DNA from: an uncultured Clostridia bacterium
GTDB lineage: Bacteria; Bacillota; Clostridia; Christensenellales; Borkfalkiaceae
NCBI GenBank assembly: GCA_947629675.1
Contig: CANREM010000017.1
Coordinates: 1 to 35,742 of the forward strand
DNA: 35,742 nucleotides
Direction: 5' to 3'
A program made the position numbers and the translations under genes. The notes under the pieces were generated by a model. It was not told the origin of the DNA, searched no databases, and saw only the letters and a list, made by a program, of their open reading frames with translations. Shown here piece after piece: positions 141 through 7,682 of this stretch. The stretch's first letter is position 1. Every line of letters starts with the position of its first letter.

Positions 141-227
141 TGGTGCCGCTGGTCGGGCTCGAACCGACACGGGTTTTATCCCGAGGGATTTTAAGTCCCT
201 TGCGTCTGCCAATTCCACCACAGCGGC
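141..227 (-). tRNA. tRNA-Leu (UAA anticodon), CCA encoded
   Basis: Read on the minus strand, the acceptor stem GCCGCTG pairs with CAGCGGC, followed by A73 and an encoded CCA. The D arm is GTG/CGC; the anticodon stem AGGGA/TCCCT encloses the loop CTTAAAA, giving anticodon TAA (reads UUA and UUG). A long class II variable arm (CGGG/CCCG) and a GTCGG/CCGAC T arm with loop TTCGAGC complete the fold. The long variable arm and loop assign it to leucine. A T-rich terminator follows at once. The leader upstream is unusual: see the repeat and ncRNA entries at 228-622. Confidence 0.97.
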
Positions 228-271
228 GTGTTATACAGTTTTCATATTGTTCTGCCCTGCATGGATACAAA

Positions 272-286
272 GCAAGGGACTTAAAA
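272..286. repeat. 15-bp inverted copy of the tRNA-Leu anticodon arm in its own leader
   Basis: Plus-strand 272-286 (GCAAGGGACTTAAAA) is the exact reverse complement of plus-strand 189-203, which encodes D-stem end, position 26, anticodon 5' stem and the whole anticodon loop. In the minus-strand precursor, the leader 44 nt ahead of the mature tRNA can therefore pair perfectly with the anticodon arm. A degenerate copy lies at 569-579 (10 of 11 bases), and both copies are preceded on the plus strand by TACAAA. Confidence 0.85.
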
Positions 287-325
287 ATAATTTAAGGTTT
301 CCAAAAAAAGACGCAGTATTTTTTT

Positions 326-588
326 GGAAAAAGGAGCCGCAACGAAGCCTGTTTGCACTTTCCGCTTGCGGAAAGTACTCGTGGCGAAGTTTGCGGCGAC
401 GCGCGTCTGCCAATTCCACCACAGCGGCTCGTCGGCGCACGCCTCCTTTTCTCGCTTTTCTTGCGAAAAGCTCCTCGTTAAGGCGGTGCCTCCTCTTCGT
501 GAAAAATCTTCCCAAGGAATCTTTTTCACGATTTTTGTAAATTTGTTAGCCCATGCCTTTCTTACAAAGCAAGGGGCTTTGAGAACAA
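326..588 (-). ncRNA. Putative short transcript carrying a tRNA-Leu 5' fragment
   Basis: A consensus minus-strand promoter (594-622) has no open reading frame with a credible start behind it. The predicted RNA starts near 587, passes hairpins at 499-530 (CGTGAAAAA/TTTTTCACG) and 454-471 (GCTTTTC/GAAAAGC), then the 26-nt tRNA-Leu 5' fragment (402-427). It could stop at a compound hairpin: outer arms 391-397 and 336-342 (TTGCGGC/GCCGCAA) enclosing the perfect palindrome 357-376, followed on the minus strand by CCTTTTT. It is either an independent small RNA or the attenuated leader of tRNA-Leu. Existence and ends are inferred from sequence signals only. Confidence 0.35.
402..427 (-). repeat. Exact 26-nt copy of the tRNA-Leu 5' end
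   Basis: Identical to 202-227 in the same orientation and exactly 200 bp away. It covers acceptor 5' strand, positions 8-9 and the complete D arm, stopping exactly at the end of the D stem. The following sequence no longer resembles a tRNA: there is no anticodon arm, T arm or CCA. It is a truncated tRNA copy, either part of a tandem duplication of the leader-tRNA unit or an integration scar. Confidence 0.85.
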
Positions 589-593
589 CATGA

Positions 594-622
594 ATTATAC
601 CACGGTGCGGGGGAAATGTCAA
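594..622 (-). promoter_or_regulatory. Consensus sigma-A promoter toward tRNA-Leu
   Basis: On the minus strand TTGACA (617-622), a 17-bp spacer and TATAAT (594-599) match the consensus at all twelve positions. It drives the region holding the tRNA fragment and possibly the complete tRNA-Leu. Confidence 0.85.
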
Positions 623-2333: not shown

Positions 2334-4889
2334 TTATTTTTCCGTCGTGGGGTTGAGCATGTCGCACAGCTTTACGAGGACGCCCGAGATCGGGAAAGCC
2401 GCGAGGATGACGCAGACGATGAAGAGGATCTGCGGGAAGGTGAGGGCGACGTCATGCCAGCCGTCGAAGATAATATCGCCGAGGACGGGGACGGAGACGC
2501 ACATGACGCAGATGCCCACCGAGACGCCGTATAAAACGAGCCGCAGTGCGTTGAACGGGGTGAGGATGCGGAAGAGGATGACGAGACCGCCGAAGGTGAG
2601 GGCGAGCATATACATCGCATGCGCGTTCTGCATCTCCGCAAAGCCGTAATTCGCGGGCACGGTCAGCCCTGCGATATATACGCTCATCACGCACAACACG
2701 AGGGTGATCGCCCCCGGCACCGACCGCGAGAGGACATATGGGATGAATTTCCCCCGCACCCGTTCGGTATTCGGCTGCAGCGAGACGACGAAGGAGGGGA
2801 GGGCCGCCACGAACATCTCGAAGAGCAGCATGTTGTTTGTCGTGAAGAAGTAGGATTCGCCCATGCAGATGCAGATGATCGCGAGCATGGTGATGAAGAG
2901 CGTCTTTGTGATATAGAGTGCGGCACTCGACTTGATGTTGTTGATGACCCTGCGCCCCTCAAAGACGACGGAGGGAAGGCTCATGAAGTTGTTGTCCATG
3001 AGGACGAGGTGGGAGACATTGCGCGCAGCCTCCGAGCCAGATGCGACGGAAATGGCGCAGTCCGCCTCCTTCAGGGCGAGGATGTCGTTGACGCCGTCCC
3101 CCGTCATGGCGACGGTGTGCCCCTGCTTTTTGAGAGCCTTCACAAGCACCGCCTTCTGTTCGGGGGTGACACGCCCAAAGACGGTGTAATCGTTTGCCAC
3201 ATTCTCCACTTCGAGGTCGGTGAGGCCGTCGAGTGAAATGAACTGCGAGGCATTTTCCACGCCCACGCGGCGGGCGACTTCCGAGACGGTCACGGGGTTG
3301 TCGCCCGAGATGATCTTCATCTGCACGCCGTTTTCGCGGAACCACTTGATGGTGTCCGCCGCATCCGCACGCACGTTGTCGGCGAGGGTGATGACGGCGG
3401 TGGGGCGAAGAACGGGGGGAAGGCGGTCTCCCGAGATCTCACCTGCGGAATGGGCAAGCACAAGCACGCGGAGACCCGCCTGCGCATATTGTTTGACGAG
3501 TTTGGAGATCCTTGCGGGCATGGGGCGGAGGACGAATTCGGGCGCGCCGAACACGTACGTTCCAAGCTGTCCGAAGGAGACGGCCGAGTACTTGCGTTTG
3601 GAGGAGAAGGGGATCATCGCCGTCGCCGAAAGGGCATTGGACAGCCCGAACTTATCCTTGAGCGCGATGGAGGTCTGGTTGTTGTCGTCGAGGGCGGTGA
3701 GCATGCTGCCCATGATCTCCTCGATGGAATGGTCGGAGTTGTTGCTCAGGATCATGCAGTCGTTGACCGTCATCCTGCCGTCGGTGATGGTACCCGTCTT
3801 GTCAAGGCAAAGAACGTCCACGCGGGCGAGCATTTCGAGGGAATAGAGATCCTGCACGAGCGTCTGCTTTTTGGCGAGGCGCAGAACGCCCACCTCCATC
3901 GCGAGGGAGGTGAGAAGGAGAAGTCCCGAGGGGATCATGCCGATGACGACGGCTCCCGTGAGCTGGATGGAACGGTCGGTATCGTGCCCCGTCCGCCCCC
4001 AATTCACCCAGAGCATGAGCGCGCCGACGATGAGGATGAGAAGCCCGATGACGCGGATAAAGAGGCGGATGGAGTTGATGATCTCCGACTTCGGCTTCTT
4101 ATACTTCTTTGCTTTAGACGTGAGGGAGTTGAGATAGGTCGCAGAGCCGACCCGCTCGACGCGCACGCGGCAGGAGCCGCTCGCGATGAAGGAGCCTGCG
4201 AAGAGCATTTCGCCGGGATTCTTTTTGACGGGGATGCTCTCTCCCGTGAGGAGAGATTCGTTGACCTCCACGATGCCGTCCGCGAGTTTGCAGTCGGCGG
4301 GGACCTGCTGTCCCGTTTCGAGAAGGAGAACGTCGTCGAGGACGAGATCTTTGATGGGGATAACGGTCTTTTTCCCCTCCCGCATGACGGTCACAGAGGA
4401 GGAGACGAGGACGGAGAGCTTATCGATCTGCCGCTTTGCGAGGATCTCCTGCACGATGCCGATGATGAGGTTCAGTCCGAAGATCCCCACGAAGAGGAAC
4501 TGCGAGAGGCTGGCGTGCGCAAAGATGAGCGCGACCGCAACGAGTACGCACAGAAGGTTGAAGAAGGTGCAGATGTTGCCGATGAAGATGCTCGCATACG
4601 TCTTCGAGTACTTCCTCTTGACGTCGTTGAAGAGGAATTGGTTGAAGCGCAATTCCACCTCTTTTTCCGAAAGCCCCTCCGAGAGGCGGGGGGAGAACCG
4701 CTCCACCTCCTCCGCAGTGGGGATGTTCTTTGCATGGCGGAACTTCTTTCTCGCCGCACGGTGGGTATCTATCGGTTTCTCTTCCCGCGGCTTGCTGCCG
4801 AGAACGCGTGCGGAAAACGCCCTGCGGTGCGGTGCAGGCGCGGGCGCGGGAGCCTCTTTTTTCAGGTTTTTGCCGTCGCTTTTGTCCAC
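2334..4889 (-). CDS. Cation-translocating P-type ATPase (CtpE-like)
   Basis: 851 aa with the GTG start at 4889, chosen because AAGGAGG (4895-4901) stands five bases ahead; an in-frame GTG at 4919 has no such site and would leave only a ~9-nt leader. It couples ATP hydrolysis to ion transport across the plasma membrane. Visible motifs: actuator TGES at 215-218, membrane motif GMIPSGL at 317-323, phosphorylation site DKTGT at 363-367, nucleotide-domain KRKYS near 431, hinge TGDGVND at 596-602, then six C-terminal membrane helices. The PSGL ion-site motif in place of PEGL, and the LEMLARVDVLCLDKTGT context, resemble mycobacterial CtpE, a calcium-linked pump; ion specificity here is inference. 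The first ~60 residues are Lys/Ala/Pro rich and cytosolic. It has its own promoter and is transcribed singly. Confidence 0.9.
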   Translation of the reverse strand: MDKSDGKNLKKEAPAPAPAPHRRAFSARVLGSKPREEKPIDTHRAARKKFRHAKNIPTAEEVERFSPRLSEGLSEKEVELRFNQFLFNDVKRKYSKTYASIFIGNICTFFNLLCVLVAVALIFAHASLSQFLFVGIFGLNLIIGIVQEILAKRQIDKLSVLVSSSVTVMREGKKTVIPIKDLVLDDVLLLETGQQVPADCKLADGIVEVNESLLTGESIPVKKNPGEMLFAGSFIASGSCRVRVERVGSATYLNSLTSKAKKYKKPKSEIINSIRLFIRVIGLLILIVGALMLWVNWGRTGHDTDRSIQLTGAVVIGMIPSGLLLLTSLAMEVGVLRLAKKQTLVQDLYSLEMLARVDVLCLDKTGTITDGRMTVNDCMILSNNSDHSIEEIMGSMLTALDDNNQTSIALKDKFGLSNALSATAMIPFSSKRKYSAVSFGQLGTYVFGAPEFVLRPMPARISKLVKQYAQAGLRVLVLAHSAGEISGDRLPPVLRPTAVITLADNVRADAADTIKWFRENGVQMKIISGDNPVTVSEVARRVGVENASQFISLDGLTDLEVENVANDYTVFGRVTPEQKAVLVKALKKQGHTVAMTGDGVNDILALKEADCAISVASGSEAARNVSHLVLMDNNFMSLPSVVFEGRRVINNIKSSAALYITKTLFITMLAIICICMGESYFFTTNNMLLFEMFVAALPSFVVSLQPNTERVRGKFIPYVLSRSVPGAITLVLCVMSVYIAGLTVPANYGFAEMQNAHAMYMLALTFGGLVILFRILTPFNALRLVLYGVSVGICVMCVSVPVLGDIIFDGWHDVALTFPQILFIVCVILAAFPISGVLVKLCDMLNPTTEK

Positions 4890-4934
4890 AGCGGCCTCCT
4901 TGCAAAAGGTTTCTGTCACATTTTCTACGCTTAT

Positions 4935-4964
4935 ATTATATCATGCCTCGCGCGGAAAAGTCAA
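4935..4964 (-). promoter_or_regulatory. Promoter of the P-type ATPase
   Basis: Minus-strand TTGACT (4959-4964), 18-bp spacer, TATAAT (4935-4940). Transcription would start near 4928, about 39 nt ahead of the GTG start. Confidence 0.75.
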
Positions 4965-5025
4965 AAATTCTCATCCCGAATTGAAGTTTTTTTGAACGGG
5001 CGGCGGGAGGAGGGCGGGGAAAGCG

Positions 5026-5054
5026 TTGCGTTTCTGCGGCAAAAGGTGTATAAT
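5026..5054 (+). promoter_or_regulatory. Promoter of serS
   Basis: TTGCGT (5026-5031), 17-bp spacer, TATAAT (5049-5054). The leader is only ~22 nt, so no T-box precedes serS, unlike pheST. Confidence 0.75.
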
Positions 5055-5083
5055 TGAGAAAAACATTTCTTTAAGAGGCAGAT

Positions 5084-6370
5084 ATGATCGATATCGCTTT
5101 GCTTCGCGCACAGCCCGAGCTTGTCCGCGAAAACATCAAAAAGAAATTTCAGGAGCAGAAGCTCCCTCTTGTCGATGAGGCCCTTGTCCTCGATACCCGC
5201 CGCCGCGCCCTTCAGACGGAGGGGGATTCCCTCCGTGCCTCCCGCAACGCCCTCTCTAAGCAGATCGGCCTTCTTATGCGGGAGAAAAAGACCGAGGAGG
5301 CGAACGCCGTCAAGGCACAGGTGAATGCCGATGCCGAGCGGCTCGCCGCCGTCGAGAAGGAGACGGAGGAGGTGGAGGCAAAGCTCAAGGCCATCATGAT
5401 GCGCATCCCCAACATCGTCTCGGGGGACACCCCTGTCGGGAAGGACGATTCCGAGAACGTCGAGCGGCAACGCTTTTTGCAGCCGAAGGTGCCCGACTTC
5501 GAGGTGCCCTATCATCTCGACATTCTCGAAAAACTTTCTGGCATCGACATCGACAGCGCGAGAAGGACGAGCGGGCAGGGATTCTACTACCTCACGGGGG
5601 ATATCGCCCGCCTGCACTCCGCCGTCCTCACGTACGCGCGCGACTTTATGATAAATAAGGGGTTCACCTACTGCATCCCGCCGTTTATGATCCGTTCGGA
5701 CGTCGTCACGGGCGTCATGTCCTTCGAGGAGATGGACGGCATGATGTATAAGATCGAGGGGGAGGACCTCTACCTCATCGGCACGAGCGAACACTCCATG
5801 ATCGGAAGGTTCATGAACACGACGCTGGACGAAAAACAGCTCCCCATCACACTCACGAGCTATTCGCCCTGCTTCCGCAAAGAAAAGGGCGCGCACGGCA
5901 TCGAGGAGAGGGGCATCTATCGCATCCATCAATTCGAAAAGCAGGAGATGATCGTCATCTGCAGGCCCGAGGAGAGCGAGATGTGGTACGACAGGATGTG
6001 GAATTACACCGTCGAACTCTTCGTCTCCATGGGCATCCCCGTCCGCACCCTCGAGTGCTGCACGGGAGACCTTGCCGACCTCAAATACCGCAGTGTGGAC
6101 GTGGAGGCGTGGTCGCCCCGCCAGAAGAAGTACTTCGAAGTGGGGTCATGTTCCAACCTCACCGACGCACAGGCCCGCCGCCTCGGCATCCGCTATAAGG
6201 GGGAGGAGGGGAGCAAATTCGCCCATACCCTCAACAACACGGTGGTCGCCCCGCCGCGCATGCTCATCGCCCTCGTCGAGAACCACCTCCGCGCCGACGG
6301 GAGCGTGGAGATCCCGGAAGTACTGCGCCCTTACATGGGCGGCAAAACCGAGATCGTTCCGAAAAAATAA
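5084..6370 (+). CDS. serS: Seryl-tRNA synthetase
   Basis: 428 aa, normal length. It charges tRNA-Ser (and tRNA-Sec where present) with serine in the cytosol. Residues ~1-110 form the long antiparallel coiled coil that grips the tRNA long arm (Lys/Glu/Ala rich, two helices). The class II core follows: motif 2 around FRKEKGAHGIEERGIYRIHQ (264-290) and motif 3 around NNTVVAPPRMLIALVEN (383-399). The motif 2 loop and motif 3 differ from the common bacterial form, which has a GxxxRxTRG-type loop and a GxxxGR-type end. The variant resembles a second SerRS lineage I recall from clostridia and some methanogens; that placement is from memory. Start backed by AAGAGG eight bases upstream and by the promoter at 5026. 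Downstream lies a repeat block. Confidence 0.93.
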   Translation: MIDIALLRAQPELVRENIKKKFQEQKLPLVDEALVLDTRRRALQTEGDSLRASRNALSKQIGLLMREKKTEEANAVKAQVNADAERLAAVEKETEEVEAKLKAIMMRIPNIVSGDTPVGKDDSENVERQRFLQPKVPDFEVPYHLDILEKLSGIDIDSARRTSGQGFYYLTGDIARLHSAVLTYARDFMINKGFTYCIPPFMIRSDVVTGVMSFEEMDGMMYKIEGEDLYLIGTSEHSMIGRFMNTTLDEKQLPITLTSYSPCFRKEKGAHGIEERGIYRIHQFEKQEMIVICRPEESEMWYDRMWNYTVELFVSMGIPVRTLECCTGDLADLKYRSVDVEAWSPRQKKYFEVGSCSNLTDAQARRLGIRYKGEEGSKFAHTLNNTVVAPPRMLIALVENHLRADGSVEIPEVLRPYMGGKTEIVPKK

Positions 6371-6371
6371 A

Positions 6372-6583
6372 CGAATCGCGTATAGGCGTCGAAATACTGC
6401 GTCTTGCTTCCGCGTCATGCTGCCCCGCGCGCACTATTGTCTACTAAGCGCGGCACGAGGGGCAGGCGAAGTAGCGAAGGCGAAGCCGAAGTCGAAGGAT
6501 CCCCCTATACGAAGTCCACTTGTACGCGGGCTGCGAAAAGCCTCGCACTTCTTGTCTTTCTTGCCTCTACGCGATTTAACGGT
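6372..6583. repeat. Intergenic palindromic element, copy 1 (nested)
   Basis: Ends are inverted: CGAATCGCGTATAGGC on the left and CCTCTACGCGATTTAACGGT on the right, shared with copies at 15630-15764 and 25193-25321. Inside is an inverted copy of part of the 25560-25627 element (GCGTCATGCTGCCCCGCGCG, then CTAAGCGCGGCACGAGGGGC) and the common core CTATACGAAGTCC. It has no credible ORF and looks like one repeat inserted into another. Confidence 0.75.
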
Positions 6584-6590
6584 GACTGAA

Positions 6591-6690
6591 CCCCCACCTC
6601 CGTCTGACGGCGGAGCCTCCCCCTTGGGAAGGGGGAAGCCCTACCCCTCTATGAGGGGGAGGGTGTCGCCCTCGGGCGACGGGTGGGGGG
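6591..6690. repeat. Four-hairpin G/C-rich element
   Basis: Outer arms CCCCCACC (6591-6598) and GGTGGGGG (6682-6689) enclose four perfect hairpins: 6600-6610, 6619-6635, 6644-6658 and 6665-6680 (GTCGCCC/GGGCGAC). Related hairpin clusters are at 8988-9101 and 35379-35440. It ends 27 bases before the exonuclease start codon. Confidence 0.75.
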
Positions 6691-6716
6691 GTACACTTTT
6701 GCCGCAACAATAAAAC

Positions 6717-7682
6717 ATGCACTACGTATTCTTTGACATCGAATGCGCCTGCGTCTACCGCAGTGTCGCCAAAATATGCGCCTTCGGGTATGTCGTCACG
6801 GACGAGAATTTCAACGTGACGGCGCGGGAGGACATCCTCATGAACCCCAAGGGCAAATTCCACCTCACCGACAGAAAAGGCGGCGAGGGTCTCGTGTTAC
6901 CCTATGAGTACGAGGACTTCAAGAAGTACCCGCTCTTTCCCGCCCATTTCCGCAAGATCCGCGCCCTTCTAGAGGCGAAGGATGCCATCGTGTTGGGTCA
7001 TGCGACGATGAACGACGTCAACTATCTCAACCTCGAGACCAAGCGATACCGTCTACCCTCCTTCCGCTTCGAATTCCACGACACGCAGTTCTTCTGGATG
7101 AATGTGACGGGGGAGTACGGAAGGCAGGTCGGCCTCGGGGCGATCGCGGAGAATTTGGGTGTAGATTTCACCCCGCACCGCGCCGTTGACGACGCCTACG
7201 CCACCATGCGGGTGTGCGAGGCCCTCTGCAAGCGGGAGGGCGCAAACGTGCAGGAACTCATCTCCCGCTATAAGATCCGCGGCGGCAGGGTGGAAGGCTA
7301 CCGCATCACCCCCTGCGTCTCCATGGGCCAGAAGCGGTTCTATGTGGAAAAGGAGAAGGAGCGCGCCGCCTATCACAAGGCGCACGAGGAATTCTACCGC
7401 TACGTCAACAAACACATGCACAAGAAGCGGAAGGGCGCGCTCGAGGGAAAGACCTTCTGCTTTGCAAAGGACGTCGAAGTGGACGTTCCCTCCTCCGTGA
7501 AGCTCGTCGCGGCGATCTTTTCGGCGGGCGGCAAATACACATCCCATCCCGGGGAATGCAACGTCTATATCGCACGCGAGGAGGGCGGAATGCGCTTCAA
7601 TGCCGCACTCTCCTCCGGGGCGGCCTTCATTCCCTACGAGAAACTCAAAGAGGAACTCTTAAAGAGCGGAAAAGCGTCATGA
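6717..7682 (+). CDS. DEDDh (DnaQ-like) exonuclease with BRCT-like tail
   Basis: 321 aa. The N-terminal ~190 residues are a 3'-5' exonuclease fold: D7 and E9 in FFDIECA, an acidic residue at about D101 in GHATMNDVNYL, and the final H-D pair in HRAVDDAYAT (about 154-159), which gives the DEDDh set for two metal ions. Residues ~240-321 (EGKTFCFAKD, then FSAGGKYTSHPGECNVYIA) look like a BRCT-type fold, as seen in some exonuclease-like proteins; this part is less certain. The start is fixed by the motif position but has no Shine-Dalgarno sequence, since a hairpin-rich repeat ends just ahead. It overlaps the rRNA methyltransferase gene by ATGA, so the two are probably translated together. Substrate (DNA or RNA) unknown. 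Confidence 0.82.
   Translation: MHYVFFDIECACVYRSVAKICAFGYVVTDENFNVTAREDILMNPKGKFHLTDRKGGEGLVLPYEYEDFKKYPLFPAHFRKIRALLEAKDAIVLGHATMNDVNYLNLETKRYRLPSFRFEFHDTQFFWMNVTGEYGRQVGLGAIAENLGVDFTPHRAVDDAYATMRVCEALCKREGANVQELISRYKIRGGRVEGYRITPCVSMGQKRFYVEKEKERAAYHKAHEEFYRYVNKHMHKKRKGALEGKTFCFAKDVEVDVPSSVKLVAAIFSAGGKYTSHPGECNVYIAREEGGMRFNAALSSGAAFIPYEKLKEELLKSGKAS

Follow-up and report, generated by a model that had tools for sequence, protein, structure and literature searches.

A candidate small mobile element with an arm complementary to its putative insertion site in a clostridial tRNA-Leu(UAA) gene

RESULTS

The tRNA-Leu(UAA) locus

The window is the whole stretch of DNA analysed, 35,742 nt of contig CANREM010000017.1 from an uncultured Clostridia bacterium. 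An intact tRNA-Leu(UAA) gene lies on the minus strand at positions 141–227 as called by ARAGORN, and the Rfam tRNA model RF00005 matches 144–227 with 51.8 bits. Promoter-like sequence is found on the same strand at 594–622, comprising TTGACA (622–617) and TATAAT (599–594). Between the promoter and the tRNA are two ~105-nt copies, in opposite orientation, of a structured repeat that we term E, together with a 26-nt copy of the 5′ half of the tRNA. Neighbouring genes at 2334–7682 encode a P-type ATPase, a seryl-tRNA synthetase and an exonuclease (Pfam).

Starting at the promoter, the minus-strand transcript passes through a degenerate form of a segment termed arm A, E copy W1, the copy of the first 26 nt of the tRNA, the reversed E copy W2, arm A itself and a 44-nt spacer before entering the tRNA. 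W1 (428–534) is on the minus strand, the same strand as the tRNA, and matches the covariance model of E with 97.6 bits. It comprises hairpin H1, AGAGGAG, the stem P2 and CGACGAG, and ends where the copy of the tRNA 5′ half begins. W2 (297–403) is on the plus strand, opposite to the tRNA, and matches with 70 bits; it comprises H1, AAAGGAG, the P2 stem with its inner hairpin, and CGACG. The fold of 428–538 (W1) has z = −6.40 and that of 300–403 (W2) has z = −3.05. The tRNA 5′ half forms a direct repeat, of which the first copy, R1, lies at 202–227 (minus strand) and the second, R2, at 403–428 (minus strand), identical at 26/26 positions on sequence comparison. Base 403 is common to W2 and R2, and base 428 to R2 and the W1 match.

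Arm A (272–286, plus strand) is a guide-like segment 10 nt ahead of the match to the E model. The original prediction described it as a leader complementary to the anticodon arm, and the complementarity is exact: on the minus strand 272–286 reads TTTTAAGTCCCTTGC and 189–203 reads GCAAGGGACTTAAAA, reverse complements at 15/15 positions. The near copy placed at 569–579 is likewise present (AAGCCCCTTGC, 10/11, plus strand) and is taken as a degenerate second copy of A, the homology being judged by eye. In the plus-strand reading, the complementary bases of the minus-strand tRNA are the 13 nt to the left of the insertion junction (LEFT, 189–201) and the first 2 nt of R1, so that A comprises 13 nt of LEFT and 2 nt of R. 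With a slash marking each junction, the locus read along E has the order LEFT/R1–A–E/R2, and the leader segment of the original prediction is A, an exact antisense of the LEFT/R1 junction.

The complementary segment in related genomes

A strict cut-off gave 24 tRNA-Leu(UAA) genes from 81 genomes of the genus, the remaining 57 having no match that strong. Fifteen of the 24 loci have, upstream, an exact antisense stretch of 12 nt or more directed at this region of the tRNA, bearing out the contention that the match is beyond chance, and all 15 also have E there. A chance origin of the complementarity is ruled out by this recurrence in relatives, by the controls for the junction rule and by the loci chosen through E (both below). 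At 13 of the 15 loci the best match stops 43–47 nt short of the tRNA; in L213 and L216 it lies further off, and L213 has an additional 14-nt antisense copy near the tRNA. Relatives with an intact tRNA-Leu(UAA) and no complementary leader, the case on which a regulatory role was to founder, were also found. The 12-nt complement is missing from nine of the 24 intact loci, including all seven that have no match to the E model (antisense in 0/7). L208 has a degenerate arm (14/15), and in L209 E is on the 3′ side of the tRNA with no arm. The upstream stretch is shortened by contig ends in L209, L217, L228 and L229.

Two further features of these loci were seen. L224, counted as lacking E, has an H1-like stretch directly before the tRNA that may be a remnant of E (by eye). 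In L219 and L222 a truncated second tRNA-Leu 5′ part lies upstream of the tRNA-Leu(UAA) in the absence of E, and may be what remains of an insertion since lost.

L210 is an empty site. Its sequence is the same as the upstream DNA of the window at 638 of 691 aligned bases, up to position 590, and TATAAT is located 9 nt from the tRNA, compared with 366 nt in the window.

The arm is retained together with E. When loci were chosen for a reverse-oriented upstream E (n = 16), 14 were found to have 13 or more of the 15 arm bases unchanged, and a shifted arm of 12–13 exact nt is present in L211 and L229, which are also E-chosen. None of the loci without E (n = 7) reaches 13/15. The linker between A and the tRNA has drifted to a mean pairwise identity of 0.56 (14 loci). 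The arm identity of 0.88 is biased because the loci in question were picked by the arm motif, and the loci picked by E were therefore used for the repeat test.

Pairing of the leader with the anticodon arm

Capture of the anticodon arm by the leader, as originally proposed, is predicted with a probability near 1 in the fold of a 150-nt precursor running from A through CCA. The calculated energy is −52.9 kcal/mol, against −45.8 kcal/mol for leader and tRNA folded separately, both values referring to secondary structure with tertiary contacts and co-transcriptional folding left out. Since the leader takes the anticodon arm almost completely in the predicted fold, misfolding of the tRNA is possible. 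The complementarity behind the proposed tRNA-Leu(UAA) switch is real and long-lasting, while regulation as its purpose is unsupported. It is an unlikely purpose because relatives without the segment keep an intact tRNA and because similar arms occur at unrelated genes. A junction-spanning arm beside E is also present at tRNA-Thr, tRNA-Pro, RNase P RNA, rpsI and rlmN, and in the tRNA-Thr and rpsI cases it lies on the downstream side, beyond both the gene and a terminator-like hairpin. Disturbed tRNA folding may be an incidental effect, and is not the common denominator.

Structure of the repeat E

Searching the genome itself with the leader gave five further places, four of which carry the repeat, the other (C11) being merely another tRNA-Leu. 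The covariance model was built from the common fold of five aligned copies. E is ~105 nt in length and comprises the hairpin H1, the sequence AGAGGAG, the stem P2 with a bulge and an inner hairpin, and CGACGA at the end. Among 43 selected copies that were aligned, changes on both sides are seen at 18 of the 19 base pairs of P2 and the inner hairpin. There are 163 cells of two-sided change compared with a shuffled mean of 48.6, and the signal is lost when the strands are slid; the structure so tested was derived from the same alignment. The loop of the inner hairpin is frequently GNRA on the E strand (by eye). Judged from their sequences, AGAGGAG and CGACGAG could pair via two tandem G·A steps. 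Counts of G–U and A–C pairs do not decide between RNA and DNA as the folded strand.

No model of Rfam 15 matches E, whether in the window or in the distant and viral copies, and a group I intron, a T-box or another known RNA is excluded on this basis. No description of the repeat was found among the titles and abstract openings listed by literature searches, subscription journals and preprints falling outside their scope. A closing stem between the arm and the downstream flank was rejected as a rule, since it attains at least 11 nt in just 18 of 99 copies and the null itself reaches long matches via near-identical copies.

Antisense arms spanning the insertion junction

Read along E, the general order is LEFT/R1–spacer–A–E/R2. 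R duplicates a portion of the target gene, which leaves one gene intact. A is 9–19 nt of antisense to the LEFT/R junction and usually lies 2–14 nt ahead of E.

The 239 model matches represent 217 distinct copies. An R repeat, scored as an upstream copy of the 20 nt following E with at least 17/20 identities, is present for 62 copies and lacking for 155. Setting aside nine tandem copies left 53 that could be scored, of which 36 carry exact antisense of 9 nt or more across the junction. Among nearby control windows, 3 of 292 reach at least 9 nt of antisense, spanning or not. In 32 of the 36 positives the first base of R coincides with the final base of E, offsets of only −2 to +2 being allowed; in a looser set this was so for 43/79 copies, and there A lies within 14 nt of E in 27 of 31 junction-spanning cases. 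Copies with a junction-spanning arm are flanked by R repeats of at least 18 nt.

Of the 36 positive copies, 15 are at tRNA-Leu(UAA) and seven at tRNA-Thr. The 53 copies fall into 27 target clusters, of which 11 reach the 9-nt threshold and 16 do not, and several of the 11 are neighbouring positions within one gene. The positive tRNA targets are tRNA-Leu(UAA), tRNA-Thr, tRNA-Pro (at more than one position) and another tRNA gene (L122), isotypes not called by ARAGORN having been read by eye. The other positive targets are two positions in RNase P RNA (L083/L136 and L089/L126; the genes were verified with Rfam), the rpsI 3′ end (L185; scoring 144.6 bits with NCBIfam S9 against a cut-off of 112), and the 3′ end of a gene that best fits RlmN (L041 and L028; last 98–100 residues, 83 bits, below the cut-off for the whole protein). 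At tRNA-Thr, A exactly matches each of two gene variants, with GGC/GGTCC at the junction in L047 and GGC/AGTCC in L062. The arm of certain tRNA-Thr and tRNA-Pro copies is broken at the first 5–7 nt of R (by eye). Tandem arrays of the form (R–A–E)n–R occur in L004, L083, L214 and L227. Many E copies lie within palindromic repeats, where arm and R are indistinguishable.

In other families of the order (82 copies) an R repeat is present in 11 and A in 1 of these 11, with 2/57 for controls. The junction rule has thus been demonstrated solely within the lineage that surrounds this genus.

Distribution of E

The genome of the window contains eight matches to the E model, one of them weak. Matches occur in 40 of 61 genomes, comprising this one, 33 of 36 relatives in the genus and 6 of 24 genomes from other families, and reach 31 in a single genome. 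An order-wide scan found E in 37/151 genomes and a phylum-wide scan in 7/398, both including the present one. A strict E pattern matches at least 120 stretches in named records; the 80 matches listed are mostly from uncultured Clostridia, many of them from rabbit, ruminant and chicken samples. Records of Paenibacillus and Verrucomicrobia that matched the strict pattern gave no match to the E model. For 43 of 99 copies a tRNA or tmRNA is found no more than 250 nt away, a raw count with no background rate.

Several individual settings were noted. In L136, E (1093–1203) is inside the RNase P RNA gene (936–1411), and as the Rfam match continues across it, E may be tolerated there as an extra hairpin domain. 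E is antisense beside a THF riboswitch in four genomes (L002 and L010, which are the same place, L015, L016 and L022; assigned by Rfam in L002 and by sequence similarity in L015, L016 and L022), perhaps as part of the expression platform. It is close to the 3′ end of tmRNA in L033 and L040, directly abutting it in L033. By eye, E occupies the loop of dispersed palindromic repeats in L024, L055, L066 and L303, and in L024 similar palindromes lacking E are found next to the E copy. A longer type of E in L006, L018, L048 and L042 has an extra conserved domain, GAGGGTGGAGGCG or similar, between the arm and E, and in several copies of this type GGCGCGCC or a similar sequence follows E (both by eye).

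E-like elements are also found in viral contigs and distant genomes. There are four in L281 (at 2775, 3205, 3639 and 8403) and three in L205. In L281, L275, L274 and L205 they lie between ORFs, often finish at an ATG or GTG, and are possibly cis-acting RNA. These copies suggest that the fold is older than its spread into chromosomal RNA genes.

Search for a mobilising enzyme

The high-copy genomes G001, G005 and G006 contain no reverse transcriptase, TnpB, Y1 transposase or IS110 domain. Y1 HUH transposases are present in 14/61 genomes, G018 (14 E copies) and G010 (11) having one each, and the domain is also absent from G000, G008, G020 and G024, these seven genomes having 8–31 copies of E. 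A Y1 helper, if there is one, may be lost, unassembled or phage-borne. Reverse transcriptase was found in 12/61 genomes, including that of the window and G024, and is missing from G008 and G020 as well as the three high-copy genomes. TnpB occurs in 3/61, one above the cut-off, and is additionally absent from G008, G020 and G024. IS110 recombinase matches were obtained in 8/37 genomes (four above the cut-off, and one in the genome of the window); G008 again has none. Tyrosine-recombinase matches number one in G001, one in G006 and five in G005. By eye, matches to none of these five enzymes track the copy number of E, and no integrase was seen inside the E-bearing units, which are a few hundred bp in size. 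Three loci with cargo between two E cores (L100, L130 and L143) were considered as autonomous copies and rejected, the ten ORFs scanned having housekeeping domains, DUF1508 or nothing.

DISCUSSION

The unit containing E has very probably inserted as an element. Evidence for a mobile element comprises its dispersed multi-copy occurrence and covarying structure, the empty site in L210, the direct repeats and tandem arrays, the junction rule and the precise right end. The exact arm match to each of two tRNA-Thr variants, the keeping of A where E is present and not where it is absent, and the proximity to tRNA and tmRNA genes point the same way. On balance, the complementary leader segment is best explained as arm A of a small, non-autonomous mobile element, matching its insertion site. 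The chances that A has a guiding role are about even.

In the mechanism that we envisage, A would pair with the target strand to either side of the cut, and the right end of E would be joined to R by a logic resembling that of IS200/IS605 elements. Such an insertion would re-create the junction and leave the site reusable, giving (R–A–E)n–R arrays. In the window, W2 would have entered the tRNA-Leu(UAA) gene antisense, between the D arm and the anticodon arm, and W1 would have come to lie at the 5′ end of the tRNA copy.

A number of observations count against the mobile-element reading. No mobilising enzyme was found, the rule was not reproduced outside the family, 16 of the 27 target clusters have no junction-spanning arm of 9 nt and 155 of the 217 copies have no scorable R. 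A single target, tRNA-Leu(UAA), accounts for 15 of the 36 positive copies. Moreover, the arm of a parent element should fit the parent's own site, leaving matching arms at new targets unexplained.

The main rival is that A is a by-product of template switching during replication or repair at the folded E, a snap-back inverted copy of the junction with no guiding function, the arrays then arising by slippage. The failure to find a partner enzyme, the recurrence of tandem arrays and the confinement of the junction rule to one lineage would all fit such an origin, which we nonetheless regard as rather unlikely. A has been kept in the E-chosen loci while the adjoining linker drifted, and it is centred on the junction and close to E at unrelated genes, as a passive by-product need not be.

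It is improbable that E was originally a cis-acting RNA of phage operons ending at the next start codon, its chromosomal copies being domesticated or decayed and spread by ordinary recombination. Such an origin would accommodate the E-like elements of viral contigs and distant genomes, with several per contig in L281, L296 and L205, and the ATG or GTG found directly after or overlapping the end of E in 17 of the 32 copies listed (by eye; genes unnamed). It leaves A, the R duplications and the tRNA targets unexplained, and neither A nor R is clear in eight copies from distant genomes, where within 1.5 kb direct repeats do not exceed 8 nt and antisense does not exceed 11 nt. Least probable of all is a regulatory leader that pairs with the anticodon arm to delay tRNA-Leu(UAA) maturation or act as a switch: the predicted precursor pairing and the near-constant spacing from the tRNA favour it, and against it stand the intact loci lacking the segment, the presence of E at every locus that has it and the like arms at protein and RNase P genes.

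Returning to the mobile element, it is conceivable, as a tentative proposal, that E represents an undescribed class of programmable element with a folded ~105-nt core, a natural guide of 9–19 nt spanning the cut site, essential structured-RNA and housekeeping targets, a duplication that preserves the gene, and an enzyme outside the guide-using families tested. Even if A is a by-product, E is a family present in 37 of 151 genomes of the order, with viral relatives, that remodels tRNA and RNase P loci and matches no Rfam model.

Comparison with known systems

Some group I introns reside in tRNA-Leu(UAA), where a segment within the intron pairs with the sequence to either side of the insertion point. 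E in the window shares the tRNA and a segment that pairs across the insertion point, and differs in being antisense, at another position and unmatched by any Rfam intron model. Elements mobilised by tyrosine recombinases at tRNA genes duplicate the end of the gene, so that one intact gene stays, and can occur as tandem copies. The gene-preserving duplication and tandem copies are common to E; its units differ in their size of a few hundred bp with no integrase seen, in their antisense arm and structured end, and in targets that extend to rnpB, rpsI and rlmN. A group II intron or retroelement would call for a reverse transcriptase, absent from G001, G005, G006, G008 and G020, and a TnpB omega RNA for the TnpB nuclease, absent from the same five genomes and G024.

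The bridge RNA of IS110 elements is a structured non-coding part bearing target-specific sequence (PMC11208160, PMC11208158). E differs from this in having one contiguous antisense arm together with direct repeats, and no IS110 recombinase was found in G001, G005, G006 and G008. REP sequences and REPtrons are described as short dispersed palindromes in which a conserved motif precedes an imperfect hairpin (PMC8266576). E is similarly short and dispersed, with a motif and a hairpin. In place of GTAG it has AGAGGAG (by eye) and CGACGA, it possesses target-matching arms, and no Y1 (TnpA-REP-like) domain was found in six of the genomes with the highest E copy number.

The same lack of a Y1 domain in those six genomes distinguishes E from the IS200/IS605 family, as do its junction-spanning arms of up to 19 nt and its long gene-copying repeats; IS200/IS605 insertion gives no direct repeats, whereas E copies have R repeats of at least 18 nt. 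In the published account of IS608, a guide located 5′ of each end hairpin recognises the cleavage or target site by pairing, and insertion is retargeted when the guide is changed (PMC5934647). The guides are described there as tetranucleotides, with engineered variants alone reaching 12/17-nt sites, at high specificity (PMC5934647). The likeness to E lies in the guide 5′ of an end hairpin, the precise right end and the hairpins themselves, the complementarity in E being known from sequence (36/53 copies against 3/292 controls). If A is a guide, then retargetable insertion with a long guide, as achieved in IS608 by engineering, would already exist in nature, at essential genes that are left intact; E would offer a testable system for the change of guide and target, and a reason to seek an unknown transposase in Clostridia.
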